Shown here one piece after another: positions 40,340 to 64,000 of a stretch of DNA of 64,000 nucleotides. The first letter of the stretch is position 1. Every line of letters starts with the position of its first letter. The translations under genes and the position numbers were made by a program. The notes beneath the pieces were generated by a model. The model saw only the letters and a program-made list of their open reading frames with translations, was not told the origin of the DNA and did no database searches. The DNA comes from Sclerodactyla briareus (taxonomy: Eukaryota > Echinodermata > Holothuroidea > Dendrochirotida > Sclerodactylidae): NCBI GenBank assembly GCA_026419785.1, contig JAODTK010000677.1:124001-188000 (forward strand), in the 5' to 3' direction.

Positions 40340-41655
40340 TCACCGGTTAACCCCCCCCAAGTTCGGGGATCGCCAAAATAACGACATTGCCGTCTGTCTC
40401 AACTTTTTGTACTCCACCCCAAACTGCAAAGCAAATATGTGATTATACACGCATCTATCATTTGCCATTATAGCCTACAGTATCTTCATTCACCTCAACG
40501 CTTACACATAGGCCTCCTCTACATCTCAGAAGACCGTGATTGAATTTATCTCTTGAGGCCTAAACAATAGATTGGGGCGAAAAGAAGTATCCGCGAGAAT
40601 CGTTGTAACGTTGAGAACACATGCAAAACAGTATGCAACCCTACACTACTCAGGCTGAATTTGAGTGACGGAAGGTTATTTCAAATCCGTATCTGACCGA
40701 TCTATTTAATCGACATTTTGTGAGTTCTCGCGCTATGCGCGATTGTGGTGTATGTTGCGAGACCCGCGGCCGCCTTCACGACCGTGGCTCATGGAGAAGT
40801 ATATACGTCGTATGTTCGTGTGTAAATCCGTACGCATTGGTCAGCTTATTGTCTCCATATGCAGTATTAAATGCACACAACTTTTAAACGAATTTTAGTG
40901 GAAGGTGGGATATTTTGCACCAACGCCATAAAGGAACAACTGACCTAGCACCAACTCGCATCTTAGCCAGGTGAAAATCATTTTCAATAGAGTGTGAAAG
41001 TGTGCTATATTACCAAATTGCATCTAGGCCACCTGGAATAAAAAATGATAACCTCCCACAGCCCGCCATCTATCTTCACCCCCGTCGAATAAAACCAAGC
41101 CCCTCCTCCCTCTCACTAAGCTTCCTGGCGCCGCCCACTGATTGGATCCGCCCTTTGAAAATTCTGCCCCATGGAGCAGGCTGCGCCAATAGTATTGACG
41201 CCTTTCCGATTGTAAAAACATTAGAAGGTCCTAAGTGTAGCCTTTGTGAAATGGATGAAAACTATATTGCCATTGGTGGGTGTCTTAACCTTGAACTTCA
41301 TATATTTGCCCTGGGTCCTATTACATGAGGCGATGGCAACAATGAGAAGAAGTGAGGACATCGCGTGCGAAGTGCGCATTTTACGAGGATTCAACACTGG
41401 ATAATTCATATATTCCTCACACTGGTCACTGATTCAGTCGTTGAACCTACGACTATTTCGAAACATTATAAGCGAAAATACAGCTGGTTCAAATTGAGGA
41501 CAAAAACCCCCCTCTTTACCCAAATTATTGAGGTGACGCCCCCACTCCCATGATAGCCGCTCATGCAGCACCCCATCGGGAGCCCTCCCTTCCCGTCATG
41601 TTTATATTGAAAAATGCAATTCTGACAGAGGGGTGGGTGAGGTTTGGAGTATCTT
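40340..41655. other. no gene recognised
   Basis: No recognisable gene. The part next to 40330 may hold the decayed 5' end of LINE-4. A GGATCCGCCC word at about 41145-41155 resembles the ends of the MITE that follows. Confidence 0.35.
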
Positions 41656-41663
41656 CGATCGGT

Positions 41664-41846
41664 CATCTCAGGCGGCGGATCCGATTTTGGGAAAAAGACA
41701 TTCGAGAGGGAATTCAAAAATAAAGTGACTAAAAAATGACTGGCGTCGTGGGGGAGGTGAGGTGAAAAAGGTTAGACCTGCTTTTTTTTGCTGGAGCCAA
41801 AGTTGGACCCCTCCCCTTTGGAAATCCTGGATCCGCCCCTGTGCTG
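41664..41846. mobile_element. MITE-like element with CAGG...GGATCC ends (hAT-like)
   Basis: The left end CAGGCGGCGGATCCGATTTT and right end AATCCTGGATCCGCCCCTG form an imperfect terminal inverted repeat around about 180 bp. CAGGG-type termini are typical of hAT transposons, but an 8-bp target duplication could not be seen, so the class is tentative. No transposase is encoded. It sits directly upstream of a LINE fragment. Confidence 0.5.
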
Positions 41847-42305
41847 TTTTTAAACATTGGTATGGTAAGACCTCACCTGGAGTATTCTTTGGATTGGGAA
41901 TCATCATCTCTCGAAAGAAAAGTTGTCAATTGAGGACTTCCACATGAGGGTTACAGATTAATCAGGTCCTGCGTGCTTGCCATATGTGGAAAGGGGAGTG
42001 AAGATCGGTTCTCATGTAGCTAACGAATATCGAGTTTGATCGATTTCAGGTTCACAAAATTGACCGTTTGATTAAGGTTTTCAGAATTGGCCATGGCTTG
42101 CGATGATGACCGCCTTTTAACTTCTTTGAATTTTCCAATGTTTCCACTAATAGGGTCATCATCTCAACTCGTGGATAAGGTTGCTGGCTAGATTATTTGG
42201 AAGTATGTGTTCTCTCTCAAGCGTTCAATGAGTGGAACAGCCTCACTGAAAATGTTCTTTGGTCTCAAGAAGTGCCACTACCTTCAAGACAGTCTTAATT
42301 GGTTG
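41847..42305 (+). mobile_element. LINE-6, C-terminal RT fragment
   Basis: The plus strand reads NIGMVRPHLEYSLDWESSS then LERKVVN and YRLIRSC (usual form LVRPHLEY...VW...(K)..E.VQ+.A.RLI) at about 41855-41975. After a decayed part it reads LSQAFNEWNSLTENV then LWSQEVPLPSRQS-stop (about 42215-42291), the typical C-terminal F..WN.LP..V of CR1/jockey-type ORF2. The lineage differs from LINE-1, LINE-2 and LINE-4 at this end. The catalytic core is absent. Confidence 0.75.
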
Positions 42306-43530
42306 TTTTTTTTCAGGATTTTGGGGTACGTGCTTTTTTCTGCGTTTTAGTGTTTTGCATACGTGAGCGAGAGGAGCGATAGATGCAAATGCGGCATATC
42401 GATGCCAAGAAAAGAGAGTACCCAGCCCCCAGAGGGGCCACCTGGGGTGGGGTTAACACAAACACATCTCCACATCACCGGATAGAGTACTACCGTACGA
42501 AAAAAGATGGACATGTGACTGCTGTGATCTACAAACTCACGGACTTGTTTCGATTAGTCCACACACGTAATATCAAAGGAAAAGTGAACAAGTGCCTCGA
42601 CCTTTACGACCGGCCCTCAAGACCGTCAACACAATCAGCTTTTTGGAGGCAAATATAAGAATATGGCCGACGACTGTATTCTTCATTTTTTGGGTAATCC
42701 TTGGATTGGCTTAATTTCCAGAAAAGGAGAACTGTTCGATTGCGCAATATGTTGTACGTTCTTATTGGCAGAGAAATCATACCCTCCGGTTATTCAAGTG
42801 AAGCATTTCATTGTGTTGATTAGTGTGTTGCCCCATATGACATGTGTTGGACTCTGGCTCACAGGGGCAACTAAAGTTCACGTTTATCGTATCTGTGTTT
42901 CTTTATTATTCATCCAGGACAGCCTTCAGCCACCAGTCTAGGAGCGAAGACAGACTCTCACCCTTCACTCGCTCACCTAAGTAAGCCTATAGCTACGTGG
43001 GGGAGGGGCTGGGGGGGGACGCTGCGCGTAAATGCAGGAACTCGAACTGGATTTGTTTGGCATGGAAAGCATCACTGAGCGGCTCCGCCACTTCCGCCCA
43101 ACTAGGTCTCCTGATTCTAGATTTCCTAGACGGATAGTCCGGACTGCGCGACTGCAAACTTAAATCAACGTGAATGAACCTTCAATAGACATCATGATGA
43201 TAGAATAACTACTGCTACATATAAGCGAGCTATGCAGCAGAGTATAACACTCAACCGTTCTTGTTAATGTAGAGCCTGAACAAGAAATGTGAAGGAACTT
43301 ACCGTAATCAATCAAAGGTGTTCAAGCTACCCTACTACCCAAAAAACCACTTAACTTAACAACAAAACTATGTCGTAAATATTCGTAAAGGCACATTTAA
43401 TGATTTCACGTTCATGCTTGCAAAGGCAACACCAATGGGGGTCAAGTTTCGGACCTCCAACTTCTTTGGCCTTTTCTTGGTACGTATTTTTTTTTTTGCC
43501 CCCATGGATAATGAATACACTCCTGTGACC
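42306..43530. other. no gene recognised
   Basis: Two plus-strand frames of about 90 codons (42383-42658 and 42663-42941) were read without recognising any family. No splice-bounded exon was convincing. Confidence 0.4.
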
Positions 43531-43535
43531 CCCGA

Positions 43536-43712
43536 CTGTCCGAGGGCGCAGCCAGTAGGGGACCAGGGTATCATGACCCCCCCCACTTTTGGGAAGGCCT
43601 CCATGCATAATAATTTTTTTGCAACACACAAATGTTTCCCATCACTGCTTCGATCCCCCCCCCCCCAAAGTGCCTTGATCCCTCAACTTTCAGACAGTGG
43701 CTGCGCCCTTGA
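43536..43712. mobile_element. MITE-like inverted repeat (GGGCGCAGCCA ends)
   Basis: GAGGGCGCAGCCAGTAGGGG on the left pairs with CAGTGGCTGCGCCCTTGA on the right, bounding about 175 bp rich in C and G runs. There is no coding sequence, and target duplication was not identified. The similarity of these ends to other compact inverted-repeat elements suggests a DNA transposon derivative. Confidence 0.45.
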
Positions 43713-43719
43713 CTTTAAC

Positions 43720-45250
43720 GGGTAGTGGTACTCTTTTACTATAATGTGTATCGTTCACTGCGTTGCGAGATTGTGACCAGGTAGTGTTATTTACGCCACA
43801 TGTTTCACTAGCTGCTCCGAATACAGCTTCCGCTATTTTGGGGGGTGGTTTCATACTCCTCTATTTCCTTACTATTTGAACACCACAATAGACGAATCTA
43901 TCGATCCTGCCAGTCTTTGGTTCGACCCACTGGGAGTCGACCTGAACCCCAACGGACGGTGCAAGTCTGATTCATCTTGACATGGCACTGGATTTGGATA
44001 AGTCAATTTTCTTAGTGGGGTGGGTAGTGGAGGTGACCCTCCTCCTCCACCGGGGTCTCCTCACAGAGTCTCAAGCCATTCGATAGGCACACCTATACGA
44101 ATATTATTTTTCCTCTATTATAAATAATTAGTTTCATTACAGGGTACATATAACTCGCTCCGGGAGTGTCGTATCCGGCCATATGGCAGGCTCGTGAACG
44201 TAAAAAGCTACTGAACTACGCTCACCGCGCCAACCCTATGGCGGTCCGCTTGGATCTTGACAAGGCGTGAATAAGTGTGTCCGATCCTATTGGAATGCCC
44301 AAGAAACTTCGAAGCAACAGTCCGTTTAGGCTTCCGTAGTATTTTCTCCGGGTTCGTCTTCCGCTCGCTTACCCTTGTTTCGTTCACTCAAGCACGTTAT
44401 GCTGGTATGATATGCTGGAACTGGATTTACCAACTTCTACTGCGTGGTCGGTTGCTGCTCGTGTGGTATGTAAGTCTGACGATTTTAGAAAGACTTGCTG
44501 AAGAATATCCCAAATGATGGGTACTAACGTGTAATGTTTGCCAACAAATTTTCCAACAAGACAGAAAGGTGCAAAGTCCAATGTATTGTATTCATTCCCA
44601 AGACAACCTGTCGTTCACATGAGCTGTAACCTTTCAAATGGCAGGTGACACCGCAACTTATGTGTTAGGCTAGAAGCCTAGGCTAGCTGAGTTAGGGACA
44701 GTGTGTGCGTGGCAGTTACAGTGTGTGCGTGTTAAATCTAGAGCTCGGATCGTACGCTTTTGCAGCAATTGCGGCATGATGCATAATGTATACCTATGTG
44801 TATCAGGGGTAGCGTTAGAGTCACTTCCAATTCCAGAACAATAATCCCAGGTCTTATTGTCACCTAAACCTTACCCACACGAACCCGAGCCATCTTTAAT
44901 TGGATCCCTAAAAATAATTTCATATTGCTTAATTTTTCAACACCCAGGTACCCATCCTGACATGGGTATACATTATCCAATCACTACCGCAATTACAAAA
45001 TGACCGAAATATGTGGAAGTCTCACAACGACAACAGGCTGCCAACATTAGAGATCTGTTGAGAGTGAGATCGTCAGGTGAACCATGACGCGGAGCGCGAC
45101 ATTGGGTTTCACGCGGAGCGTCCCGCCAGGGAGATTTTCTGCTAAAATGACCTTAGATCGCAGGAAATGGCACTTCCCATGCCCCTCACCCCCATCACAG
45201 GAACCCTCAATTGATAGGTATTTCATAGTAGTAATTCAGTGATTATTTTT
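43720..45250. other. no gene recognised
   Basis: No gene is recognised. A local inverted word, GACGCGGAGCG / CGCGGAGCGTCC, occurs near 45085-45125. Confidence 0.4.
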
Positions 45251-45259
45251 CCCTCATTC

Positions 45260-46058
45260 CAAGTGTTACCCTACCCACCAAGTTCGTTCAATCACAACTA
45301 AATAATTTCGTGTAAAACCTCAAAATAGAGGGCAGCAGACACAATCTGGTGAAACCTTGAAATAATCATAATGTTTCTCTCGGGACCATGTGTTCCCCTA
45401 CCCCCACGTTTCATCTGAATCAAACAGATGAACTTTTCGTGTAAAACCGCAAAATAGAGGGCAGCAGACACACATCTGGTGACCTTGAAAGCATACGCCA
45501 TGTTTTTTTCGGAACCAGGTGTTACCACACCCATCAAGTTTCGTTACAACAAACTAATATTTCGTGTAAACTGCAAAATAAGTGCAGCAGCACATCTGGT
45601 GCCTTAGACTTATCACCAGGTTTTTCGGGCCCAGGTGTCACCCCACCCACCAAGTTTTCGTCTGAATCACACAGCTGAATAATTTCATGTAAAAACTCAA
45701 ATAGAGGGCCATGGTTTTTGTGGATTAGGCAGGGATGTGCCCACGCTGGGCGGCACGCCCGGGTTGGGTAACGCGCCGGCACTCCGGCATGTTTAAACCG
45801 TCACTCATGCAAATTTGCCAATAACCCCGGCACTAATCCTCCTTGTTTTCTATTAAATTACCTTACAATGCGGTCGTTTTTGAGTTCCCACTGCCATTTG
45901 TGACCATGTTTCAACCTGTACTCATAATTTCTGGGCAAAATCCCTGGATTAGGTGTTACCGGGCCTACCCATCATTTCGTATAATAAATAGAGGGCAGCA
46001 GACACCTTTGTTGACCTTGAAATTATCGCCATGTTTTTTCAGGACCAAGTGTTAAACC
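45260..46058 (+). repeat. tandem satellite, about 127-bp unit, 5-6 copies
   Basis: The block AAATAGAGGGCAGCAGACA (and variants) recurs at 45327, 45456, 45580, 45702 and 45988. Between the repeats lie CATCTGGTGACCTTGAAA, CCATGTTTTTTTC, GGACCAGGTGTTACC, CACCCACCAAGTTTCGT and TAATTTCGTGTAAA. Spacing is 122-129 bp, except for one insertion (45720-45960) between the last two. Units differ by many single-base gaps. Confidence 0.85.
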
Positions 46059-46149
46059 CCGACACAACTTCACGTCCAAAGCGAACGCGGAACAAACTTG
46101 ATAGTTCGGTACAACCTCTATTAGACATGCAATTTTGCCCACTTTCTAA

Positions 46150-46330
46150 CCGATTCGAGATTCATCATTCCCTTGGGGTGGACAGTGTGTACTAACTTTC
46201 CTATCAATCGGACCTTTGTGTATGGAGAGTATTTCGCTAACGCCTAAAGTTTTCCGGCGGCGGCGGGACGGGCACAGGCCCAACCAGAGTATCCCCGAAC
46301 ACCTACAATGTTGCGGGGATATAACTATCT
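46150..46330 (+). repeat. GCG-core dispersed repeat, copy 3
   Basis: The segment carries TATCAATCGGAC, TTTCGCTAACGCCTAAAGTT, CCGGCGGCGGCGGGACGGGC, CCAACCAGAGTATCCCCGAA and CACCTACAATGTTGC in the same order as the copies at 34190 and (reverse) 25390. Confidence 0.65.
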
Positions 46331-46334
46331 TCAC

Positions 46335-49300
46335 TTCTTACAATATTATTCAATCAGCCTTTTTCGATATGATTTAACTTCACGCAGTGCTCCCGACGTT
46401 CGCCTGCTCATCAATACTTTTTTCATGTTGTGCTTATTTACGAATATAAACTTAGTAAGATAATGCTAAATTTGGGTCTACATTTACCAGTCAGACGACC
46501 CCCGCGTCTTTCCTACTCTTCAATTGTATTTATGAAGGCGAGGCAAAATATGTACACAAAGTTAATTATTATCAAAATCTCACAAAAAGTTGTACCTTTA
46601 TCTGCGGATTTGTACTTTCTGGTGTTCCTGCTGATCGTTAAAAAAAACCTTCGCAAGTTACGTTGCTATTGACCTGGTCCTGTAGGCTCGTCTTGAATCA
46701 ACCGTACGCTTTTACTGCAGTTCTGTACAGTAAATGCTTCGCGTCGATCAGCGAAAAAAACACATGTTTCGGAGTATTAACCGCTGTATTGTCCCTCGTA
46801 GTTTTATACACCTGTCACAGCTCAATCGTGTGCGGCGCATAAAATTACGATCTGTGTAGTGCGCGGAGTCTGCTGGACTGCTAATGAGTCAATGAGGGCG
46901 AGATGTAAACTAATAATTTTTTGACACGTACTCAAGAAATGCATGAGCAATTTTATGCCTCGCCGTGAGAGCGGAATCGGTACCGAATGCGTGAGTCGCA
47001 CGCGATGCGTGAGACTCGGCAGCCCTGGACACAACGTCGGAAATCGTTGCCAGAAACGAAACATAAGTGTACCCAGGCTCGGCCTAGGCCTAATTAACTA
47101 AAGACAAAGGAAATTGGGGGCTCTTCGTGAACAGCGCCTAGCTTCGGGGCTTATGACCGACACCTCAGCCTATCCCTACCTTCCTTTAATGTTGAGATGA
47201 AGGCCAGTGCTGCCTGGACAGCAGTTTCCTCCCCCAGTGCGGAATCCAAGTGGCCTAGTTGGTACTCATTACTGCTGAGCAGGCCCCACGCACCAGCACA
47301 GAATTAACTGGCCCCCCGCAATGAGTGGTAGCTGGCGCGATAAATTGAGAAGTTCGTGACACCAAACTTTCCCCCCCGATTACTCACACCTAATTATTCA
47401 CATACTATGAACAAGCACCATCGAAATCCCTTCCACTTTGTAAACATGTGTGTTTAGGCAGCCATATCACTACTGTGAGTGCTATACCCAGTGCAACAGT
47501 GAAAACTTTCCTTTTCCAATGCCTAGTCGTCATGGTCAGGATTGTTGATAATTCTAGTATATTCAATCGAATTGTCATACTGCTTTATTTTTTGCAGTTT
47601 TTTGCTATGTTGCACCCATGATTTGTAAATTTTTCATGTATTTTGCATTAGGAAAGAGTAAAACATTGAACATTTCCGTTTTTGACGCAATCTGTCGAAA
47701 TTTGCAGGGATTTCTGATACAGGAATGTTTTACATTCGAATCAGCGCGCCCATGGTCCGCCTATTGTATAAGCAGTTCCCCACGCTGTGCGAGTCATGAT
47801 ATCGTTTGAGTCATGGTAACCGTTAACTATACTCCCCTGTTCGAGCCTGCATCATTGGCGTGTGCATGTTTTGCACAGTACAAAATATAATGAAATGAGC
47901 TTCAGGATCTCTTGTGCTGACTGGATGGAAATGGTATTTAAAGGACCGATCTGAAAAGTTTTGAGACATGTCAAGAAAGCTGTCGAAGCAGACAAGTGAT
48001 ATATTTAGGCAGGTGCCAACCACAGGGTCGCGCATACGTAGCGTCAAGAAAAACTTAGTGTTGACAGACCCCCAGATTGCAGGGAATGGCGTTCCTTGTG
48101 CCTTATGGGACAGTAGCGCATTCCTAAGTTTGAAAGATCTTCATTTTAGGAAGGTTCTCCCAAAAACTATCGTCTTAGTAATCAATTCAGTTTTTGTTTT
48201 GCGTGGGTTGCTGTATTTCCTGAATACGTGCAGGAGGTTAGGTCCTGAAGGAAGCAATGGAAATGGGCAATGGCAACAACCAGACTTTTCCGCACGTGAA
48301 TGCGAGAATTTTGCAGGATCAATTGACCAACGACATGGGCCCGGACCCCTCTCTGACCTTCAACTTAGATATGCCGAGATTTTTTACTCCAAGATTAACA
48401 ACCCCCCCCTTTTTATCTTCTTTGGCGGACCACAGGCGCAATGGGAGGACACTCCAAGTGGGGCCAGGCAGGTGCCAATGAGTAACCCGAAAATTTTATT
48501 ACACTTTCAGACATTCCATCGGAAAGTCGGCCATCTTCGGAAAATGGACTTCACTGCATTTTTTATCATGTCTTGCACAATTCTGGTGTTCCTTGGCCGA
48601 ATCTTCGATGGCTAGTTTTGGGGCTCCGCCCTCACCCATGTGCCTGCCCCCTTAGTAGATGCACCCTGCATGGGACCTAATTTCAACAAGTGGTCGCCCC
48701 CCATAAATTGATTGCTGAATCTTAAATTTGCAATAAACTCCTATTCCACAAATCCACGAGTCCTGCCAGGTGGTTGACTTACCTTACCCCCTCCCCCATC
48801 CGCCTCAACCGTCCTTCCCTTCCATAAACAACGATCACAACTTTTGGGTGAAAATTCAGGGATATTTTAATTTAAGCGTTTTCTTCACTTGAATTTTTGG
48901 TTATTCCTTGCTGACTTGGAAACTATGCAGTCCATGACAGTGTGGTGTGTCTATGCGTGTGATTATTGCTTATCAGGTGAACTAATTTACAAAATTTTAC
49001 ATTTTTCCATTCCCATGGAGTTTGATTAGGTTGGATTTTCTCTCAAAGTTATCCAAACTACAAATCTACAACCCAACTGATAATGAGCTGGTGATTGCCA
49101 TGTTTCTAAAGGTAAAAACCCCTGATCGCCTTGTTTTTCTCAAATATCGTCAATGTCATACCTGCTGGACAGGCCTCCCCGAGTGGCATAAAATTCATAA
49201 ATATGGTTGAAAAGGGGCAGGTAGCATGAAATTGACGGGTAAAATCATAACAATCATAAAATTGTGTAAAAATGATTTGTGGATTGCTTTCAAATATCTT

Positions 49301-49830
49301 TCTCATCCCTTTAATGCCTGAAATGTCATGGTGTGTAGGCTACATATTTACTCCACATAGCGCACAGTTGGGATACCGCTTTGTGCCTTCAATATTGCTT
49401 CCTCATGTGTTACTACATGCAACACTGTCAATGTTCAGGCACAGTACCTAGGCCTATGGAGGATTTCAAATGAAAGCAATGTCATCTGATGCTGTTTATT
49501 TGAACATAAATACATGAACCATGACCTAGACATTCTTCATTTATAAAATAGTCTAGTCACACCCTTCTCTTCTCCCTCCCTATTCAAACTCCCCCTTCCT
49601 AGTCTAATGCCCCCTTAGAGAAGTATCAGTTTACCACCTCTTTGAATCACTGCACCTATTAATTGTGAATTATTAGATTGAGTATAGGCTGCATGTGGTA
49701 TAGCTCATATTATTAGCTTATCACTGCCCATCAGAATTGGTTACAAAATGCTCCTCTCCCATTCCCTTTCCCACATGGATAATGAATGAAACTTGTCCCC
49801 CCCCCCCCCCAATGATGACCAAGTGAAGGG
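46335..49830. other. no gene recognised
   Basis: This stretch contains the longest open frame of the window outside the repeats (215 codons, plus strand, 47968-48615). Its translation shows no domain, no signal peptide, no splice context and no family I know, so it is treated as chance. Confidence 0.4.
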
Positions 49831-49836
49831 TCCTCT

Positions 49837-50560
49837 GGGGTGTTTTTAGAAATTGAGGTCAAGGTCATCTAGGGATCAGTTTTGGCCATTTTGGGACCGT
49901 ATTGCCCAATGCTTCTCTTGCGATTAAGTTGATTTTGTTCATAATGGTCAGTATTGTCATATAACCAGTCATACCTTGGTTGTTCGAGGGATTTCAAAAG
50001 ATCATTATGGGTGTATTTGATCCCAAAGGTTATTTTGGGGGTCAAATGCCAAAATGTTCCATTCCTATACAATTGAATGGGTGATCATGATAGATGGTCA
50101 ATGTCTCACTGTGACCGTGGGCATATGGGGTGTTCAGCGAAATTGTGGTCGCGGGTGCTTTAAGTGGTCCACAAAAAGGGTCATTTGTGGTCAACAGTCA
50201 AATGATCCCCTATAGATTGATTTTGGACTATTATTAGATATCGTCAATGCATGACCAATGGTACACGTGGGTTGTTTCTGAAATTTGGGGTCAGTGGTCC
50301 TCTAGTTTCTCAATTTGACCCAAATGTTATTTGGTTGGGGTGAAAAGGTCAGATACACTCCTCTATAAGTTGATGTCATGTAGGTGCTCAGTGCCCATCA
50401 CTGACCATGGTGCACACAGTTCCCGGACAACTCCCACCCTGACATGTTTAGTCCTGCCCCTTTCTGACCAAAAAAAACACATTCCCGCTGAGGGTGAATT
50501 GCCCGTGTGGGAATTGGTCCGGTCACGGGTGCCTTGGGGTGTTCAGGAATTGAGGTCAAT
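49837..50560 (+). repeat. tandem repeat, about 140-bp unit, 5 copies
   Basis: GGGGTGTTTTTAGAAATTGA and variants recur at 49837, 49977, 50127, 50268 and 50535, with a TTCCCGGACAACTCCC variant at about 50416. Each is followed by GGTCA/GGTCATCTAG and a TTTGACCCCAAA-like part. Divergence between units is high. The part at 50405-50535 is shared with the palindrome-bearing repeat at 26325-26470. Confidence 0.7.
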
Positions 50561-50564
50561 TGAT

Positions 50565-52085
50565 GACCATTTATGAGACTGCACAAAATCTTGCTGCTTT
50601 TACAAGATGAAGTTGGCTTTCTTTTCAGTAAGTTTGTCAGTCATATAATTGACTATTTGGTTCCTATTTGAATGCCTTTTCAATCAAGTTTGTCGAAGAG
50701 CATTTGCTAATCAAGCACATCAGAGCTTCTATGGTTGTGGTTAGGCTGTTGCCCGTTGCATTTTTTGTTTCACAATCAGTCCAATTAACCTTTATAGATG
50801 GATAATACAGCTACCACCCTTGATGCTCGTGTTTATTCAAACAGGGTACTCTCGGTACAAGATTTAGCAGTAAATACCTTCCAACACCATCACTTGTCCA
50901 CCTAGGTCCTGTATGTTCCTTAATAAATTCCATTCTGTAAAGTAGTACCCATTTGAAAAGCAAATATTCTGCTCATCTTTCTGTAGTAAATTGCTGGCAG
51001 GCTAGGCATTCTCTGTGTTTTATCTTCACTTTGATCAGCAACGCAAAGTTCCTGTGTTTATCATAGCTTTTCAAACTCTTGCTCCCTGTGTTTGGCTTGA
51101 GGGAAAGGGGCCCATCTGAGGCGCAGGTGTTGTTTGCAAATGTTAGCATATGTTATTACACTCTAGCTATTAGATTAGTCAACTTCAAACTCGGTGTGTT
51201 TTTCAGAGCAGAGCTGTTGGTTGTACTTTTTTACTTTTCATACAAGTTGCCAACTTGGTAAACTTACAGATGGCTGGACATGAACAATGGTTTGAACTAC
51301 TGAACCCGGTGCTCTGGTTTTCTTGTCAGTATCCCCAGCCATATAGGGCTATCTCGGTAGGCTTCTAAAGAGTCAGTCCCAAACTTCATTAGTGAGTAAG
51401 TGACCTTATCTTCAATTTCCAAATGCTTTCCAGAAAATGTGAAAGGAGGCATGTGGAAATCATTCCAATGTTTTTGCTCAAAAACTCCACACCCATTGTT
51501 GTTTTGGTGATCCTACCATGAATTTTTTGAAGGCCTACTTTACCTTTTTTCCCACCAAGATCCGCGGTTGAATTGCCAATAATTGGAAAAGACCCTTACT
51601 GTGAATCTTGGGTGGGAGAATTCCCTAGGTCAAGAGTGTCCAGGTGATACCACCCTGCAATACTGTACTAGAGTAAAAAATTCAGAATTGTTGCCCTGGT
51701 CTTTCTCATGACGATCACAATTGTAGAGCATCTGATCCTTAAAGAACTTCGAAAGGACAGTCAGTCATGCATAATGGTCCCCACCTTTCTTAAGAGCCAC
51801 CAGAATTGGCGCTAAACCTGTTATGTATATTATTTTTTTCCACACCAATTGCCCAATTAATCAATTTAATTGATTATAGAATTGTGGGCCCACGCGAATT
51901 GCATTGCAGTATCGCGGATCGGAGTGGATCGACGCTCGCTACTAATTCCCATCCTTGAATCACCGAGTAGTTAGAAACTCCCATAGATGTTAATTTGTGC
52001 GATAAAAAGTTTTGCTGTCGCTCCTGTACCAGTACATAGGAGTGGCCGACTTGGTAGTTGAGTAACGCACTGTACTTTATCAGGG
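50565..52085. other. no coding sequence recognised; probable CNOT10 upstream region
   Basis: No gene is recognised. From about 51890 CpG words become more frequent (ATCGCGGATCGGAG, GATCGACGCTCGC), compatible with a promoter just 5' of the CNOT10 exons. No TATA box or mapped start supports this. Confidence 0.35.
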
Positions 52086-52101
52086 GTAATGCATTGTCAG
52101 A

Positions 52102-52112
52102 ATGCAGTCACA
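52102..52112 (+). CDS. CNOT10: candidate first coding exon of CNOT10
   Basis: ATGCAGTCACA is followed directly by a consensus donor GTAAGT (52113-52118). Joined to the acceptor at 53404 it stays in the frame that reads into the recognised CNOT10 N-terminal exon (M-Q-S-Q-C-R-Q-E-E). Such short N-terminal exons do occur, but this is only a phase and splice-signal argument. A different upstream start is equally possible. Confidence 0.25.
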
Positions 52113-53404
52113 GTAAGTAGGTGATACCACACGTGTTTCCAACGGGCTATGTAGTGAAACTAGTGCAACAGCATAGGGCGAGTAGCACGCAACATATAGC
52201 TTTGCCTGCAGTTTTATTATTACGTTACCATACGCTGCGATGGTCATGGCAGCTGGGTATTCCGCAAATAATGCAAGTACACAGCTCGCAACACACGTGG
52301 GGCAGTTTTATAAAAAAATCATTTTTCACAGTTTGCTGTTGAAGCCTGGCGTGTACTCGGCAGCGGCTTGGATTCGGCGAAACACACATAATCATATGTG
52401 TTGGGCTGTTGGCTATTTAATATGGGCTCCGTAATAGGCCCCTACTGTACTTTGAACTTAATACCGACTACAGATTGCGGTAGCCCACGGCATTTTCCCG
52501 CAACAACGAATCCCTTAGCCCGACTCAGGAGGGGGAACCGGCCTAACCGGCGCATAGGATTTTTTCGAGCCCGTTGTGTTCAGTGTTGGCAATAGTACCA
52601 TCTCTAAACCGACGGTTGATCAGAACATTTCAGACATCCCAATTTTGCCTTTCTAGTTGGATGAAACCACACAACCTTGCAGATAGCGCAGTATGAAATG
52701 GCCACTGCAGTACTGACTGATCCAAGAAAGAGAAATGGTTGTGATTGTTTTGCAGATCCTTTTTTGGGTAGTCCACTGTAAACTGAGTTGGTATGCCATT
52801 TCAAGATGGTCCAATGATGAGTGGGATACGAAGTACCTCTTGCATATTGGTATGTGTGATCTGATTGTTAGTGTTTTCTTTGAAAGAAACTTGCGGCTAA
52901 CTTGGAAGAAAGAATTTCATAATAGTCCGTTCATTTCCCTTCACCATGTGCATAGGCAGTCTGGGAGCCCTTGAGAAGGTGGACATGGCGAGAGGACGAT
53001 GCTCTGTGGCAGGCAGTTCAAAGTGGACAGCTTGGTATCATTCATTATGCCACAAATGTCTTTTTAGGTGGCTCTAGCACTGAAGCCAGTTGTTTGCACA
53101 GTATCCTCGAACTGTGGACGAACTTGCCGGAATAACTGACGAAATGTTGCAATTTTATTCACCATGACCATTGGCTTGGACCGGTTTACAGATGCCCTTT
53201 TTTTTCACCAGTTGTTGTTCTCAACAACAACAGCAATTTTACACGAAAATATGGCATAAAATGCCATGAAATTGCAAACCGTGGCATAAATAGCATAAAT
53301 CTCCATAAAATAGCATAAATTTATAAATAAATTTCCCCCAAACTTGCTGGTAGGCCGCTGCTGATTTTACACTAGCTTAACGTAGTCCTCTTTTCACTGA
53401 CCAG

Positions 53405-53636
53405 ATGCCGACAAGAAGAATTGTGGCAACATCATGATGAACGTGAGCTGCCAGCCTGCCAGGAGACGAGTTTGAGGCCAAGAATTACTCCGCCTGCATG
53501 GCCAAGCTGAGAGCCCTCAAACGCTCTCCTCTCCTCGATGACCCAAGATCCGCACAACATGGTTTTGGTCCCTCCATCAGTCGGGCTAAAATCACATGTA
53601 GAAACTTGAAGAAGGGACTCAGCAAGTCTGTATCAT
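53405..53636 (+). CDS. CNOT10: CNOT10 exon, N-terminal region
   Basis: CNOT10 is a TPR-rich subunit of the CCR4-NOT complex, which shortens mRNA poly(A) tails in the cytoplasm; with CNOT11 it forms a module on the CNOT1 N-terminus. Acceptor TCTTTTCACTGACCAG, donor GTGAGT at 53637. The exon reads QEELWQHHDERELPACQE, then EFEAKNYSACMAKLRALKRS and DDPR, then HNMVLV and HQSG in shifted frames, then KITCRNLKKGLSK. This follows the family order (.D.E+EL...A...F..+NY.AC+..L......DD......N.AV.EF..S....+NL...L...). At least three single-base frame changes are needed, so coding is disturbed or the bases are wrong. The identification is from memory of the vertebrate protein, supported by the next two exons. 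Confidence 0.78.
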
Positions 53637-55506
53637 GTGAGTACAACAGAACAGTAATTGAATTTATTTTGCAAAATTGTGGCGAATTCTTCAATCATCT
53701 GATTATTCTCTTTGGGATGTTATTGTGGGTCTTTTCGGGGTTCTTTCCTGAGATGTTGTCTTTCCTTACCATTTTTCACTGAACTGAACAGTGATCAGTT
53801 TCTTATGAAATTGATCGGTCCATATTCCGAGAGAATCTCCATTGCCATTCCAGGGCACAATTCACTGGATTACAGTACATAGCATTCTGTTAGTCAGATT
53901 GGCATGTTTGGCTATCAGTTCACTAGCTGCTTAGCATCTCTGTGAATGAACAATACACGTAGCTGAGAAATCCTATTGGTCTCAATCGACAACAGACATT
54001 AGCGGTCACTGATATTTGGTGTGTGCGTGTGTATGTGATGTGTGTCCTGCTTTCTCGTAGAGGATTTCTCAGAACCAGTAAGACAGTTAAGGATTTAGAT
54101 GAAATTGTGTATTTGTATCGGGGTGGGTGATGAACGCATCTGATTAGATTTGAGGAACAAAAGTCACGAATTAAGTAGGATAATTACTTATTTTATGTAA
54201 TTTGTGGTTAAGTTGTTAGCAAGACATGATGAGAACCGTAGGTACTATGGTGAGTTGGTTTTGCACATATGGCAGGATATATAAGGTAGATGAACTGCTG
54301 AGATTTTCAGCCTAAAATATGCTAATATTAATAATTGGCATGAATTGGTGAAATCTTTAAGTTCCACGGATTTGTGAATATGTTGAAACTTTCCAACAAA
54401 ATGATTCGGGGTCAATGGAGGTCATTCAGTGGGTGTGTAATTTAACCGTGAATACTTTGAACTCCACGTATGAGTAAGGTAGGACCATCCATGCCAATGT
54501 GACAGACCTTATCAAGCAGGACAGTCCTTTAAGCATCCTGTTGATTATACACAGTTTTTGAGGTTTCTCTGGCCATGGTTGAAAGGAGGCTGTTGTTTTG
54601 CATCTTAGAACTGAGTACTACAGGATGTGCCTAGAAAATTCAGACTTCTGGGTCTGCCTTGTCATGAAAGACTTTAGATATCTGTAAAGCACAGTATGGT
54701 ATGTAAGATATTAGGAAACTAGAGGAGAGAGTGCCAGGAAATATGGGCCGCCCAAATTGTCATGAGGCTGGGCTGAAAGGCCTGCATGGGCAATTCCTGA
54801 TTCTACAATATGACACATCCTGTCCATCTACTCACTCAATCAACTTTGCAGTGACACTTTTCTATCAGCACATCTGAGCAATAGCAGTCCAAATTCCGGA
54901 CAACTGCAGGCTTGGAATACAATGGAGGTTTTTCCGTGGAGAATGGAAAACTGTATATATAGGTCGAAACCCCCATTTCAATACGATGTTCCTATGTGAG
55001 GTTATCAGCTTCACAGTTTGGTCCATTACAGAAAATTGGGGAGATCCAATGGTACAATAATGGCATGACGTCACACTTGACACCCGGGATATTATGTTAA
55101 GTATTTCATTGTTTCTTTTGTTGGATAAGTCAACATTTAGTAAAAATTCCTCTGTTTGTTTTTCTCTAACCAAAGTAACCATCACCCCCTACCAACCACT
55201 GGGCAAATCCTCTCCTATAGACTAAATGCGTCTTGAAGTGGAATTAATGAGTGAATTTCAATATAAAACAAGATAGTTTTGTCATGGTTGTGCAAGATGA
55301 CATAATTGTATTATTGCATGATGGGATGCTTTTCGATCTTGCACAATACACATGCCAAACTTCAAGACTGTAGCTCCATAATGGAAGGTGTATTAACTTT
55401 GGTTTTGGACTGACCCATTCTGTTGTCCACCAGCTTATATATTACCTCTTATGTAATTTTATCCTGAGTTGTCCTTTAATATGGCCCTTTCCGTAATCCA
55501 CAATAG
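53637..55506 (+). other. CNOT10 intron
   Basis: Bounded by GTGAGT and an AATCCACAATAG acceptor. No other gene is recognised inside it, and no large repeat was identified. Confidence 0.6.
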
Positions 55507-55655
55507 GTCCATGTTGACCCTGAGAATGCCACGTCTGTGGCGGACCAGACCAGCCTATCCCTCTTCTTCAACTGTGGCTTGTTACTGTATCATCAGAGAC
55601 AGCATAACAGGCTATAAGGATACTCGAAAGCTCTTCCAAGTCATAGAACCTCTAG
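55507..55655 (+). CDS. CNOT10: CNOT10 exon, first TPR region
   Basis: This exon reads VHVDPENATSVADQTSLS then LFFNCGLLLYHQRQHN, followed after one lost base by IRILE and, after another, LFQVIEPL. It corresponds to the vertebrate CNOT10 stretch containing (Q)VH....ENS.L.YN.A..LYH.RQ......EKL.QFIEP. The acceptor is AATCCACAATAG and the donor is CTCTAG|GTAAGATT. The exon ends in phase 1 (G), and the next exon begins with AG, restoring a Glu codon (EPL-E-DML). That phase match supports the two-exon model. The 149-bp exon carries two single-base gaps. Confidence 0.85.
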
Positions 55656-57065
55656 GTAAGATTGTTTATCCCTGGATTCACCTTGATAGCCACCCTCTTG
55701 AGCTCTGAGCGTAATGGCGTTCGGAGATTTGATTGATTGATTTGGATGACTAACGGTTCAGGAAGCCAATGTGACTCATTAATGAACCCTAACCGAATTT
55801 CTTTATCGTGGATGACACCGCGACGACTCGCCTTCCCTCTTCTCGACTAGTTCAGCTGATATCGATGCAATAGTGACCAACCAATCCGGCTCCCGGGACT
55901 GCCTTTTTACGTGCCCATCCGACAGACGATCAGTGAATTCAACGACCTGACCATTTTTTCAGAACCTGGAGGAACGGGAGGTCGACGCGACTGCTCACAG
56001 CCCGACCCGACAGCCTATTGCAAGTGCCCCCGAAACAACCCCCCAAATTTTGGCCAGCCACTGCCAACGCAGACCAGGAACCTAAGAGCAGGAACACCCC
56101 GTCGAACTGCAAGTATAGCCACTTCTGAAAAACCCCTGTCTGGTCGGCTGAAATCAAACCCGGACCCGTTGCATGCCAAAGCGACACTGATAACCGCTTT
56201 AACGATTTCCGATACAAGGCCATGCCCCTTTAAGTCTACATTTCAACGTCTGTACATAATTATAGAATTCTTCACAACCCCTCCTATTAATTATCCACAT
56301 TTTGGAATTTGGAACTATTGATAGAAGGAGCATCAGACAAGCAGTTCTTTCTTGAATGTGTTATTGTTCGGGCTCTCTTCGGCACTTTGTTACAGCAGGA
56401 GTTTTATGGAGTAAACATATTGCCCTATTCCAAGCACTTTTTTTGGGCTGGCCTATAACATTCCTAAGAGTCTACTGGTCTCACCTCACTTTTGCTCACC
56501 ATATGTCATTACTTACTCAATTTGGACTATCCGGACCAATGGCAGTGAATGATATGAATGTTGCCATTGAGTGTGCATGTAGTAATTGTTGGTTGTATTC
56601 ATCTTCTCTGTGATGAGTGTAAGTCATTTCTTTTCTAATGAGTGCTTGTATTCATATTTTACTTCCTAAAATTTCATTCAATCAGATCCCTATTCCCGTG
56701 GTGACAGAGTCTTGTTCAGGGTTTTCCATTTGTCTAGTATACTACAGAATGATTTGTAATCTTCAAAGCCAAGTTCTTTGACCGTGGACTGGCTATTTCA
56801 TCTCACTTAAGTTCATACATGTATGTGACCCATATGATCATGATTCTAGGGGGCCCTGGCTCACATGATCCTGTTTTCTTGTTGCCCTGGACAAGAACTA
56901 ATGGTGTCCATATGGGTTTGGCAATGGAGAGGGTAATAGTTTTGCTTCTTGTAATACCCCTGGCCAACGTATTTTACTCCTCCCCACCCAGTTGCTAACT
57001 GTGACGTGTTTTAAAAACTAATAAATCGGAGCACGGAGGGGCTCCATAGAGTATAGTGCTCAGCA

Positions 57066-57236
57066 TTGTTTGGAGGGCTCTCGCGGCCGGCCTCGGGCCT
57101 CGAGGCCGCCTGATGCCGTTGTTTGGCTGCCTCGGCCTCGGAGCTTCCCGCCTCGGCCTCGGAGCTTCCCGCCTCGGCCTCGGAGCTTCCTGCCTCGGAT
57201 TTTGTGCCGAGGGCCGGGTCGAGGGCCGGAAAAATA
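57066..57236. repeat. GC-rich 21-bp minisatellite block
   Basis: Three tandem copies of GCCTCGGCCTCGGAGCTTCC(C/T) (57132-57194) lie within a GGCCTCGGGCCTCGAGGCC-rich segment. The minus strand encodes repeated GSSEAEA for a short way, because 21 bp equals 7 codons. The block stands out sharply from AT-rich flanks. Confidence 0.85.
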
Positions 57237-58236
57237 TTTTTCGCTATTAACATAACGAAAAACTGAAAATTTTATGTCACAAATGCGCTCCAAAATTTGT
57301 TTGAATTTCGCGACAATTTGAACTAACGTTATCATATCTCGTTATCATCCAAAAAACTGCCGATAAAATGCTGTTGGCGCTGTGCTCGACCCGCCGTGCA
57401 ATTCCCCAGTGCAGTGCTAGAGGCCCGCTGCCTAGCGAGCTCGCTGGCCATGGACATCTTACAGTACTGGAATGCACTTGCATTGGCAAAGTGCACCATA
57501 CGCTAGTTCGCTTAGGGTACAAAGCGCGATCCTGCACTGTCGCGGCCACGCGTGACACTCACTCACCGATCGCCCCCTTACTTCGTAGTAGAAGTTGCGA
57601 GGTGAAATTCTAGTCCTCCAATGCAAAAAACTGTGCTAAGCCGGGACCAATAAATCCGAAGTAATGGTCTGTTCTGCGATCGTGAATTATTTTATACTTC
57701 AATATAACTTTATATTTATAACCTGACCCTGTAGTCTGTAGTGTGTCATGAGAAAGTCACCCCAATATATTTGAATTCCTCATGCATTATATCCCCCACA
57801 TGGGGAATATGGTTCTGTCTTCGCCATCGCCGCGCCCACGACGGAGATTTTTCATGTTGCGCGATAACTCTCCAAAGAATTGTCAGGAATACTTGAACTT
57901 TGCACACTGTTTATTCGAATAAAAATCTCGATGAGTTCAGCAATGGGGTCGCCCCACTCCCACGAGGGCGGGCATCCTGTTTTTTTGACGGTACTTTTTT
58001 TAGCGCTGATTTGGCGCGTTTTGGAACATGGCGATCGTTTTAAAAAACTACCTTTCGTGTAGCCTCATGGACCCACCGATTCAGTCGTTATCGAATGAGA
58101 TCGACATTGTCTCTCCCGGCCCAGTGAGTTGCTGCAAATATTTGGATAATACGTTTGTGGTGCAACGCAAGGCGATGGTGTAGTTTTAGTTTATGGTTGG
58201 ACTTAGTCGAAGGAATTATTGCAGTCATGACAGTGT

Positions 58237-58241
58237 GGTGG

Positions 58242-58273
<32 letters not shown>

Positions 58274-58333
58274 GTTGTGTGCGTGCGTGGTGCGTGCGTG
58301 CTGTGCGTGCGTGCGTGCGTTTTTTTTTTTTTT
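58237..58333. repeat. GT/GCGT microsatellite plus T run
   Basis: (GT)n grades into GGGTGGGTGTGTTGTGTGCG and (TGCG)n units and ends in 13 T. The apparent proteins on both strands here (V/C-rich or H/T-rich) are only low-complexity translation. Confidence 0.9.
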
Positions 58334-58377
58334 GCTTGCTGTGCGGGCGTGTGGTGTGAGCTGGCTTGTTTTAACCA

Positions 58378-58502
58378 CGTGATATCTCGACTCCACCTTG
58401 GTGATAAGCTCATACTTGGTATGTGGGTTCCCCATATGAGTATATGATCCCTATGGTTTTTCGGTCATCAGGTTAAAGGTAATATGAGGTCACCAACTCA
58501 GG
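58378..58502 (+). repeat. GAGGTCA-type repeat fragment
   Basis: GTGATATCTCGACTCCA, CATACTTGGTATGTGGGTTC, CCCATATGAGTATATGATCC and TATGAGGTCACC follow the same series as the repeat at 12190-12560. Confidence 0.55.
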
Positions 58503-59112
58503 GCCGTCGACTTGTATCACTAAAGCCTCTGGGCTCTTGGTTTAGTTTGTTGTTCGGTTCGAGTCACTGTATGATTGGTATTCGATATTGAGATGAATGT
58601 ATGCCTAGCCAAGATGGGATTTTAAAATTTAAATGTAACTTTTATAGTTAAAAAATTAGGTGTAGTACACACATTGATTGGATGGGCAGGTTTCTATGAT
58701 TAAATCCACAGCCCTTCGTGGAAGCCAGATGGTTGCAGCACGAATCAAGGACTCTGCTTCTCCCCAGATGATGGAATACTTGAGGTTTTCAAAAATGCAG
58801 TGCAGTGTCCTTAGCTTCTTAGGCTAGTACCTGTCTGCTGTGGCACTTATTAGAGTCATATGAAAGAGTGTATTTATTGTGATGGTATAATTAAGCATTC
58901 ATATTTTTTCATTGAGTGGTGACTGACTCAAGAATTATAAAATTGGTTGCATATACTTTTGCTTTTTCAGTCCTCATTTTCGGGACTTCAACATTTCTGT
59001 CTCCATATATTAATCATAATGACTAGCTGTAGCCATGGGGAAGGCGACAAAACCCAAAATGACTTATGTATTCGAACACTGGTAATTCAAATGTCTGCTG
59101 TATTTATTATTG

Positions 59113-59228
59113 CCCGGCCTCGGCCGGCCCGGAAGGTGTTGTGGCGTCGGCCTCGTGGGTGCGGCCTCGGCCTCGGGGGGGGTGGGTGCGCCTCGGCCTC
59201 GGGCTTGCCTCGACTTGCAGCGGCGCTC
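59113..59228. repeat. second GCCTCGG-rich block
   Basis: GCCCGGCCTCGGCCGGCCCG, GGCCTCGGCCTCGGGGGGGG and CGCCTCGGCCTCGGG resemble the 57.1-kb block but are less regular. It lies in the same intron. Overlapping frames on both strands reflect only the GC bias. Confidence 0.75.
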
Positions 59229-59713
59229 GACTACAACACTGGTGTCAGTGGTGGCCTGTTGTACACCTGGGGTGCTGGCACGGCCATCAGTCAACGTAAT
59301 GTGTAACTAAACGCAAATATGGGAAGACTCAAGGAATAGGATTGTGACATTAATACATAAAAATATAATTACTTTTTTATCAACTTATTTTTGAGAATAT
59401 AACTCCATATGCAGAGCCGATACGATTCTGAATAGCAATTGGTTGCTCCAGGGTTACAAACGATAAAATTATATCAATCAGTTGATGAGACACATCTGCC
59501 ATTCCTGCGGGAATCCTGCCGTTTATTATCATGTCAACATCTTCAAAATTGCAGCGATTAATAATTCCTTATGTCAGAAGGTAATCAGTCATTGTTCATT
59601 CAATTGGTGGTGTTTGTCAATCTGCTGTGAGAAAATGACAGAAATTCATTCCCTATAACTATATGAAGATCCTTTGTTTTGTGTTTCCAAAGCTTTCTCT
59701 TTCTGTTTCCCAG

Positions 59714-59856
59714 AGGATATGTTGGCCCTGCAAGTCTTACACTGCTTGCAGAGTCCTGTCTATGCACCACAACAGCCAGACAAGGCCCTGAGACCACTGC
59801 AATACATAGATAAACAGAATGACCAGCAGTAACAACAAGCCACAGATAAAAGTGAG
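59714..59856 (+). CDS. CNOT10: CNOT10 exon, second TPR region
   Basis: Excellent acceptor (TTTCTCTTTCTGTTTCCCAG) and donor (GTGAG|GTATGT). Starting with the two bases that complete the previous codon, it reads (E)DMLALQVLH, then LLAESCLCT in a shifted frame, then QQPDKALRPLQYIDKQNDQQ, an in-frame TAA, and QQATDKSE. This is the family segment E..FA..V..L..+LY..T.Q.+KAL.LL..+.K. followed by the polar N/Q-rich linker. Total length fits the phase (2 + 47 codons), but two compensating frame changes and one stop are present. The stop falls in the linker, where CAA to TAA is a single change. Confidence 0.82.
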
Positions 59857-60504
59857 GTATGTGGAATACTATATATTTGAAGCATAATGAAAGTCGATGG
59901 CTATCCGTAGAGGGGCCGATCATAGCCCTCTTATACGACTGGTTCCCATTTTGTTCCATCTGTCAAAATGCACACACATGCGTCATTATTTTCTATTATT
60001 TAAATGTGCGCTCGTTATCGGTGCAGTGTGTGTGTTTGAAAGTTTTTGTCGCATTGTGACACAATGAGCTTGGATGAGGTTTTACACCTAGGTGGTGTGT
60101 GTTTTCGTTGGGATTTTGAATGAGTTTGCTGGGTGCAGAGAACACATTTTGGATGGTGTGTAGTACAGTGTGCTGAGGAGATGTCTATGGAGCAGTCATG
60201 TGTTGACGCAACGTGTTTAGTAGTTTCCCTTTTGGACCCAGGTCATCGCTGGATTGAATGTGAGTCAATATTATTATCAGATATTATATTTATATTTTCA
60301 AATTTTGCTGGGGCCTATCATACGTAGACTCATATTATGAACCTACTCTGTAAGGGTGGCTCAGAGAGATTAGATCGATGTCGTAAATTACTTTGAGCCT
60401 TGGCAGTTATTCGTCGTCGCAGTCGCGGTCGCCTTTCCTCTGATCCCCACATTTTTAGCTCAAACCAGCTATTCTGGTTGATCTTATTGGAATCTGCATG
60501 TCAC

Positions 60505-60572
60505 TCTATCTATCTATCTATCTGTCTGTCTGGTCGTCTGCTGTCTGTCTGTCTGTCTGTCTGTCTGTCCTT
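60505..60572. repeat. (TCTA)n(TCTG)n microsatellite
   Basis: TCTATCTATCTATC passes into repeated TCTG units with one interruption (GGTCGTCTGC). It directly precedes the higher-order repeat. Confidence 0.9.
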
Positions 60573-60584
60573 AAAGCTACTTTG

Positions 60585-61960
60585 TGAGCAAGTCAAAGGT
60601 CCTAAAGGGGCTAGTATGGCCATTATGTGTAAAATTCAAAATGTATCTCCTACAAATTTTGGTGGGCACAGTGCTGATGTTCGGTCCATATGATGGTCTA
60701 ACAGCCGTACCTTCGGGGTGTTTCAGAAGTTGGTCCAAGGTCCACTTGGGCCGGGGCCCCATCTTTGAAATTTCACACAATATACTTGAAATGCATCACC
60801 TCCCACAAAATCCAATTGATGTTCTTCACAGTTACATGTAATGGTCCTTGGGTGGAGGGCCTAGGGGTTGTTCGGAATTTTTGCTGGCTCAAGGCCCAGT
60901 TCGTGCCCCTAGGGTCTCATTTTCTGGAAATACCGCAAACTTGTATCTACCTACAAATTTTTGCTGCACAGTTCTGATGTTCAGTCTATTGGTGGTCTAA
61001 TAGCTGTACCTTCAGGGTGCCTAGGGATTTAGGTCCCAAGGCCCAGTATGGGCCCTGGGGCCCATCAATGTTGGATTATGCAAATGCTTTTCTCTTACTA
61101 ATTTCAGTGCACATTGCTGACCATTCAGTTATAATGAATGGTATTAACAGCCATGCATCTGGGGTTCAGGATTTTTTGGTCTAAGGTCCCACTTGGGCCG
61201 TGGGCCATTTTATGAAATTTCACCAATGGTACTTGAAAAGCACCCTCCTCTCTCAAGATTCAAGTTAATCTCAAAGTTACAATTAATGGGTCCTTGGGAA
61301 TAGGGCCCTCATGGCGGTTTTCAGGGCTTTTTGGGCTCAAGGCCCAGTCTGGGCCCTAGGGCCCCTCATTGAAATCGTGCAAAATCTTTTATCTCCTACA
61401 AATTTTGTTGCACAGTGTTGATGTTCATGTTCAGTCATAATTGTGGTCTAATTGCTATGCCTTCATGGTTCCCAGGATAGGTCCGAAGGCCCAGTGTGAG
61501 CCCAATTAGGGCCCATCATGTGATTACCAATGTTTGTTCCCTCTAAACGAATCTGGTGCGCAGTGCTGGCATTCGGTCATAATGATTGTCTAACGCCGGA
61601 CCGTGAATTTTGGTCCAAGGTCCTCTTGGGACCTGTGGGCCCCATTTTAATGAAATTCACACAATGGTACTTCATTCATCTCCTTCCACAAGCTTCAATT
61701 GATTTTCTTACATTTACGAGTTACATGTAATAGTGCCTTGGGTAGAGGGCCATAGGAGGTTGTGTTGGGAATTTTTTTAGCCCAGGCTTCATATATGGAA
61801 TTCTTAAATCTTGTACCTCCTACAAAGTCTGTTGCACATGCTGAGTTTCAGTATAAGATGGTCTAATAGCTGTACCTTCAGGTGCCCAGGATTTAGGACC
61901 CATGGCCCAGTGTGACTGTTGGCCCTGCTACCCATTCTGGTGAATATTTTATGGGCTGCT
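60585..61960 (+). repeat. higher-order tandem repeat, period about 445 bp, about 3 copies
   Basis: GCTGATGTTCGGTC-like blocks occur at about 60672, 60972, 61112, 61420, 61565 and 61840, so spacings alternate between about 300 and 140 bp. The long subunit contains TTCACACAATGGTACTTGAA, ATTGATGTTCTTACA-like sequence and TTACATGTAATGGTCCTTGG. The short subunit lacks these. Both contain GGTCTAATAGCTGTACCTTC and CCAAGGCCCAGT/GGGCCC. Two diverged subunits were thus amplified together. Confidence 0.8.
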
Positions 61961-62109
61961 AAGACATCTTTGGGCCATATGAGATCATGGTCAAACTCAT
62001 TACAGGGCACCATAGGCCATTGTTTGAATCTGCCTCTTTGGCCCTAAGGATCTTGAACATTTAGCACATAATGGTACATTCGTCTTAGTACAATTGTGCA
62101 GTTTGAGCT

Positions 62110-63395
62110 CCATCCCCATTGGTGCTCTTTTGGAAAGGTGGCAAGATGCTCCATCGCCTTGCCCCTCGTCTGGTGTTTCAGTATCTTTTGGGAAATGCTG
62201 TATATCCTTTCCCCTCTCTGGGTTTCAGATCTTTGGGAAGATGCTCTCAAGCATGCTCCTTCTGGTGTTTCAGTATTTTTGGGAAGATGCTCCAGAAGCC
62301 CGTGCCCCATCTCTGGTGTCTTCCGTATCTTTGGGAAGAGCCTCCATAGCTTGCTCCTCTCCGGTGTTTCCAGTATTTTTGTGAAGATGCTCCATGCCTT
62401 GCCCCTCTCTGGTGCTCCAGTTTCTTTGGGTAAGATGCTCCACAGCCGTGCCGCCTCTCTGTGTTCCAGTATCTTTTTTGGAAGATGCTCCATAGCCTTG
62501 GCCCCTCTCTGGTGTTTCAGTGTCTTTGGGAAGATCTCCATATCTTGCCCCTCTTTGGTGTTCCAGTGTCTTTGGGAAGATGTCTTCCCATAGCCTTTCC
62601 CTCTCTGTGTTTCAGTTCTTTTGGGAAGATGCGCCATAGCCTGCCCCTTTCTGGTGTTTCAGTGTCGTTTGGGAAAGGTCTCCAAGCCTTCCCGCTCTCT
62701 GGTGTCTTTAGGTATCTTTAGAAGATGCTCCATAGCCGTGCCCCTCTCTGGTGTTCAGTATACTTTTGGAATATGGCCCTAGCCTTGCCCCTCTCTGGTG
62801 TTTTCGTACCTTTGGGAAGATGCTCCATAGCCTTGCTTCTCTCTGGTGTTTCAGTGTCTTTGGGAAGATGCTCCATAGCCTTGCCGTATCTGGTGTGTTC
62901 CAGTAGCTTTGAGGAAAGATGATTCCATAGCCTTCCCCTCTCTGGTGTTTCAGTGTCTTTGGAAAAGATGCTCAATTAGCTGCCCCTCTCTGGTGTTCCA
63001 GTGTCTTTGGGAAGATGATCCCATAGCTTGACCTCTCTGTGTTTTAGTATCTTTGGGAAGATGCTCATAGCCTGCCCGTTATGGTGTCAGTGTCTTGGGA
63101 AGATGCTCCATAGCCTGCCCCTCTCTGGTGCTTTAGTATCTTTGAGAAGATGCTCCAGTCCTTGCCCTTTGGGGTTCAGATCCTTTGGAAAGATGCTCCA
63201 TAGGCCTGGGCCCTCTCTGGTGTTTTCAGTAACTGTGGGAAGATGATCATAGCCTGATCTATCTGGTGTTTCAGGTTCTTTGGAAGATGCTACATAGCCT
63301 TACTTCCTCTCTGGTGTTCCAGTATCTTTGGGAAGTGCTTCAACAGCCTTGCCCTCTCTGGTATTTCAGGATCTTGGGAAGGTGCTCCACGCCCT
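62110..63395. repeat. 48-bp minisatellite, about 26 units
   Basis: The consensus is CTCTGGTGTTTCAGTATCTT / TGGGAAGATGCTCCATAGCC / TTGCCCCT. 48 bp equals 16 codons, so each frame gives a 16-residue periodic peptide. On the minus strand this is charged (KDTETPERGKAMEHLP), and frames of 197 and 85 codons stay open. Many single-base gaps shift the frame, however, and the array lies in a CNOT10 intron, so a coding role is unlikely. Units are too divergent to be a very recent expansion. Confidence 0.93.
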
Positions 63396-63399
63396 CACC

Positions 63400-63990
63400 C
63401 CCCCCCCTTCTCCATCCAGTCCAGGGACAGGCATTTAGCCCATGGACGGCATGTTTGGGTGTGCGTTTCTCTCTAGTGTTCGCGTGCAGGCCGACTCCAA
63501 TGATCAGTTGTATCTGTGAAGCACTTTCTTCACTTTAAGGAGGGCCGCCACCTAGGTCTCAAATATATTTATGATTAGCCATCATTTGAATTTGAATATC
63601 TGTAGATGTGTGGGATCGCTATAGGTGAATTTAGTCCAAACAATGAAGTGAAGGCTTTGCTAAGGTGACGGTTTGTGAATGTTACCCACTCCCATGTCCT
63701 CATACTGATTTTCACTCTGTCACTCCAAAATCAATATTGGTCACATCAAGGCGAAATGGGGGGGCAAAAAAAAAGACATGATAGGATTTTCTCTCCGGAG
63801 AACGAGCATCATTGAAAGTATCCTGATGCGGTACCCATGTAGTACTGGGTTTCAGTGTATGACGGATGATTAGTTCTGACAAGAGCTGGAATGACCACAC
63901 GCAACAATGCGCCTTGACGAAATGTGATGACTAGCGCTTCATATAAGGATGTAAACCAGTGTTAATTGTTGTTGTTTGCTCTTTACTCAG
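63400..63990. other. end of CNOT10 intron, no gene recognised
   Basis: No repeats or coding segments are recognised after the minisatellite, up to the terminal acceptor. Confidence 0.45.
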
Positions 63991-64000
63991 AAGAAGGAGA
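63991..64000 (+). CDS. CNOT10: probable start of the next CNOT10 exon (cut by window end)
   Basis: The window ends with a pyrimidine-rich acceptor (TTGTTTGCTCTTTACTCAG) followed by AAGAAGGAGA. A Lys/Glu-rich start would fit the charged linker that follows the second TPR region in CNOT10. Only ten bases are visible. Confidence 0.45.

Follow-up and report, generated by a model that had tools for sequence, protein, structure and literature searches.

The 64,000-nucleotide (nt) stretch of DNA analysed here (hereafter, the window) carries the 5′ part of CNOT10, with a reading frame that is broken in the assembled sequence in the same manner as unrelated essential and non-coding genes elsewhere in the assembly. 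CNOT10 itself, which encodes a subunit of CCR4-NOT, is an ordinary animal gene. We hold with little doubt that the window contains an ordinary and probably intact copy of it, with breaks that are base-calling errors of a long-read assembly polished poorly or not at all; both the origin of the frame changes in sequencing error and the use of long reads are inferred. A known gene is here combined with a known artefact, and the apparent gene breakage is very probably not real.

The window corresponds to positions 124001–188000 of contig C673, in an assembly of 319,486,128 bases and 3,171 contigs. The CNOT10 segments comprise four exons, the last of them probable, which lie on one strand in protein order with canonical AG/GT boundaries throughout (Table 1). 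A preliminary description of this DNA, made from the letters alone, had proposed three splice-bounded exons of the 5′ half of CNOT10; these are confirmed, with AG and GT found exactly at the boundaries it gave, and frameshift-tolerant alignment matches exons 1 to 3 to human CNOT10 in the order of the protein. The TAA that it reported is likewise there when exon 3 is read literally.

Table 1 Features located in the window and across its end (window coordinates)
Feature	Position	Strand	Boundaries or domain match	Remarks
CNOT10 exon 1	53405..53636	+	AG acceptor, GTGAGT donor	about human residues 31–93
CNOT10 exon 2	55507..55655	+	AG acceptor, GTAAGA donor	human residues 98–146; strongest similarity
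CNOT10 exon 3	59714..59856	+	AG acceptor, GTATGT donor	about human residues 148–190; one TAA in the literal frame
Probable CNOT10 exon 4	63991..64062	+	ctttactcag acceptor, GTGAGT donor	72 bases, 10 in the window and 62 beyond; ends at C673:188062
Decayed retrotransposon endonuclease	39809–40276	−	PF03372, E 6e-5	stops; part continues in another frame by eye
Endonuclease–reverse transcriptase fossil	32956–33314	−	PF14529, E ~0.04 in each of two frames	divided by a frame change

The assignment to CNOT10 is carried by exon 2. In a frameshift-tolerant scan of both strands of the window with human CNOT10 (a 692-residue query identical to PDB 8bfi_B, residues 27–718), exon 2 is the top-scoring place, with a score of 84, whereas six shuffled proteins reached at most 65 and the reversed protein 58 on the same (+) strand. 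Aligned to its own human segment, exon 2 scores 85, while the highest score among 514 other blocks is 45 and that among 200 permuted segments is 39. Its literal peptide returns CNOT10 as the top three of four PDB matches, at E values of 0.16–0.21 that are weak by themselves. Judged by its sequence, exon 2 is convincingly a CNOT10 exon, and we regard its identity as decisive for the gene.

The evidence from exons 1 and 3 is weaker, and for these exons order, spacing and splice sites count as much as similarity. Exon 1 scores 44, which none of the 514 other blocks equals or exceeds; at a harsher frame penalty its score is 38, equalled or exceeded by 4 of 514. Exon 3 scores 42, equalled or exceeded by one block of 514, and at the harsher penalty 33, a value reached by 21 of 514 blocks and 5 of 200 permutations. 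Neither literal peptide finds CNOT10 in the PDB. We accept both exons because they flank exon 2 in the right order and with splice sites. The alignment that the preliminary description proposed for all three exons is therefore clear for exon 2, and close to noise for exons 1 and 3 under the harsher penalty. A standard six-frame search of the genome with the 692-residue human protein gave nothing at E ≤ 1; it missed the window's own exons too, and so is insensitive to broken frames.

A 72-base segment across the window's end, absent from the preliminary description, is probably a further CNOT10 exon, as judged by its position, its splice sites and its final motif. The acceptor is pyrimidine-rich, all 24 codons are open, and the segment ends in AKIHQ, where human CNOT10 reads SKIHQ at residues 220–224 (within KSKIHQ). 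Its alignment score of 33 is that of a short match, over 12 exon residues and three past the donor, and has no noise control. Contig C673 ends at 189615, 1,615 bases past the window, so that the gene runs off the contig and its remainder is absent from C673.

Frameshift-tolerant alignment to human CNOT10 places 3 frame changes in 188 aligned bases of exon 1, 2 in 145 of exon 2 and 3 in 127 of exon 3, giving 8 in 460 aligned bases (1.74 per 100), or 8 in 532 with the open exon 4 included. The exons are broken as had been described, with 3 + 2 + 3 changes against the 'about six' given there. Simulated intact CNOT10 exons at 40–65% identity yield only 0–0.065 spurious changes per 100 bases, with 8 changes reached by 0 of 60 simulated sets at each of three identities, and simulated intact exons of the chaperonin genes considered below yield 0.003–0.017; these simulations covered CNOT10 and CCT only, and introduced substitutions but no in-frame insertions or deletions (indels). 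Because simulated intact exons show almost no spurious changes, the breaks in CNOT10 are truly in the assembled sequence.

The same breakage is found in other genes of the assembly. CCT7 and CCT4 are essential chaperonin genes in animals, and were aligned to checked human proteins on contigs C2009 (176 kb) and C304 (15 kb), respectively, with the aligner and penalty used for CNOT10. The 13 alignments scoring at least 75, a threshold that dropped one CCT7 alignment at 69.4 and one CCT4 alignment at 56.6, hold 46 frame changes in 2,513 bases, or 1.83 per 100, an approximate rate as some alignments enter introns. Where identity to human exceeds 70% (four stretches, 73–91%), there are 15 changes in 511 bases; including the two stretches that follow in identity (68–69%; 0 and 1 change) brings the count to 16 in 846. 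An animal genome should give dozens of chaperonin exon matches, but a Pfam chaperonin search of the whole 319 Mb gave only four, three of which have internal stops. CCT7 and CCT4 are two of the genes behind these matches; a further chaperonin match, on contig C219, lies outside the counts.

Histone H3, which is nearly invariant among animals, gave 10 genome matches; the best-ranked covers 112 residues at 58% identity, and the highest identity is 78% over 55 residues. All six distinct copies on contigs C1362 and C2362 are frame-broken, with 10 to 22 changes each, and together hold 88 changes in 2,524 bases (3.5 per 100, at a milder penalty of 6); two loci proved to be repeat views of one copy and were counted once. 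The breaks fall at differing places between copies, and many substitutions remain even when the copies are read with tolerance for frame changes. Partial copies outside the pool, on C2876 and C491, show 6 changes in 278 bases and 5 in 251. Since each copy is broken differently, the H3 genes also offer a convenient measure of how error-prone the assembly is.

U2 small nuclear RNA (snRNA), which is not translated, is affected as well. Among the 12 copies fetched of 16 matches, in tandem on C1148 and C2811, every one has at least one indel relative to the majority, with 45 indel events over 159 columns × 12 copies (2.36 per 100) and 169 substitutions (8.9 per 100). At 1.74 changes per 100 bases, CNOT10 is no worse than CCT7 and CCT4, H3 or U2. 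Breakage beyond the assembly background, the mark of a pseudogene at this locus, was not found at CNOT10; instead, near-invariant and non-coding genes (CCT7, CCT4, H3 and U2) are broken alike, as an artefact predicts. No living animal could have its chaperonin, histone and spliceosomal RNA genes all broken, and the fault therefore lies with the assembly. Base-calling errors left after little or no polishing would shift the frame in CNOT10, whereas in the organism itself the exons very likely keep their frame.

The preliminary description had left the cause between unpolished long-read indels and a very recent loss of the gene. The chaperonin, H3 and U2 controls uphold the former and tell against the latter, as essential genes are equally or worse broken. 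A loss in this species, leaving a young unitary pseudogene in place, would account for the frame changes of exons 1 to 3 and the stop in one of them, for exon 1 DNA having no second match in the genome, and for an intact CNOT10 not being found elsewhere, although by a search insensitive to broken frames. Such a loss is nevertheless very unlikely, as the density of changes equals that of the indispensable CCT7 and CCT4 and is below that of the H3 copies, while the splice sites are preserved and exon 4 has an open frame. Even less probable is a non-functional, intron-retaining duplicate with a working copy elsewhere: the broken copy does carry introns, but its exon 1 DNA matches itself alone in the 319 Mb searched, and its breakage is common to other genes.

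The breaks might also be genuine features of many genes, CNOT10 among them, with programmed frameshifting or RNA base insertion restoring the message. Breaks in essential genes across several contigs are what this would produce, but it leaves the indels and substitutions of untranslated U2 snRNA unaccounted for, and it sits poorly with H3 copies that break at different places and retain many substitutions after frame changes are allowed for, and with sequence that is in frame (a 174-base CCT7 alignment and CNOT10 exon 4); we give it almost no weight. Assembly error is the reading that we retain.

Several observations speak against this reading, and the error is uneven along the assembly. A 49-base tandem array at 36790–37083 (6 copies) has 98% matches and 0 indels according to TRF, unusually clean for this assembly; random errors at 1.5 per 100 bases would be expected to leave about 4.4 indels in it, and a slightly longer self-alignment shows one gap. 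The 174-base CCT7 alignment mentioned above has 0 frame changes, and the retrotransposon endonuclease fossils look less broken, the frame switching about 4 times over some 1,150 bases (counted by eye). The window keeps long homopolymers (T23, C16 and A15), so its profile is unlike plain homopolymer collapse, and its homopolymer-length spectrum showed no truncation. The H3 and U2 arrays may include true pseudogene copies and may lie on contigs worse than C673; the CCT7 contig is large. In self-alignments of repeats in the window, the ratio of indel openings to mismatches is 0.11–0.31 for five repeat pairs, either dispersed or adjacent; it is 0.62 in a palindrome and reaches at most about 0.5 in tandem arrays, and it does not separate age from error.

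The rest of the window is animal-like, with tandem arrays, retrotransposon fossils and few long open frames. Six-frame Pfam scans of 52000–62000 (+), 32000–52000 (+) and 25000–55000 (−), at an E threshold of 0.05 (0.5 once), found two retrotransposon endonuclease fossils only (Table 1) and no TPR or other gene domain. No tRNA was found in the window. The predicted RNA fold of exon 2 is ordinary (z −0.72), and no relative was found among viral contigs, either of the exon 2 peptide or of part of the 49-base repeat. The intron before the probable exon 4 contains a 48-base minisatellite (62139–63389) of about 26 copies with 12% indels. A TTAGGGG-like heptamer, one base longer than the common animal telomere repeat, occurs in about nine tandem copies at 16525–16587, and the long imperfect palindrome, at 14022–14189, matches its own reverse complement at 87%.

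These results are a warning to distrust gene loss, stop codons and frame changes read from this assembly, in which gene prediction will probably overlook many genes or break them into pieces. Real breaks would have meant that an animal had lost a CCR4-NOT subunit, a case worth studying.

Compared with human CNOT10 (PDB 8bfi, 8fy3 and 8fy4), the window presents the exon-encoded segments in the same order (residues about 31–93, 98–146 and 148–190, then to 224), the exon 2 segment 'LYYNQAVILYHLRQY' is recognizable, and where exons 2 and 3 join at Glu the human protein reads EPFEEK. The window differs in its frame, broken 8 times in 460 aligned bases, and in extent, since its contig covers no more than about the first third of the protein. 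In bacteria, errors that remain in assemblies made from long reads alone are documented to break genes by frameshift (PMC8812927). As in those bacterial assemblies, the assembly analysed here has many small indels in conserved coding sequence of unrelated genes. Set against that description, the 1.7–3.5 frame changes per 100 bases found here are high, substitutions are common in H3 and U2, and long homopolymers are still present.
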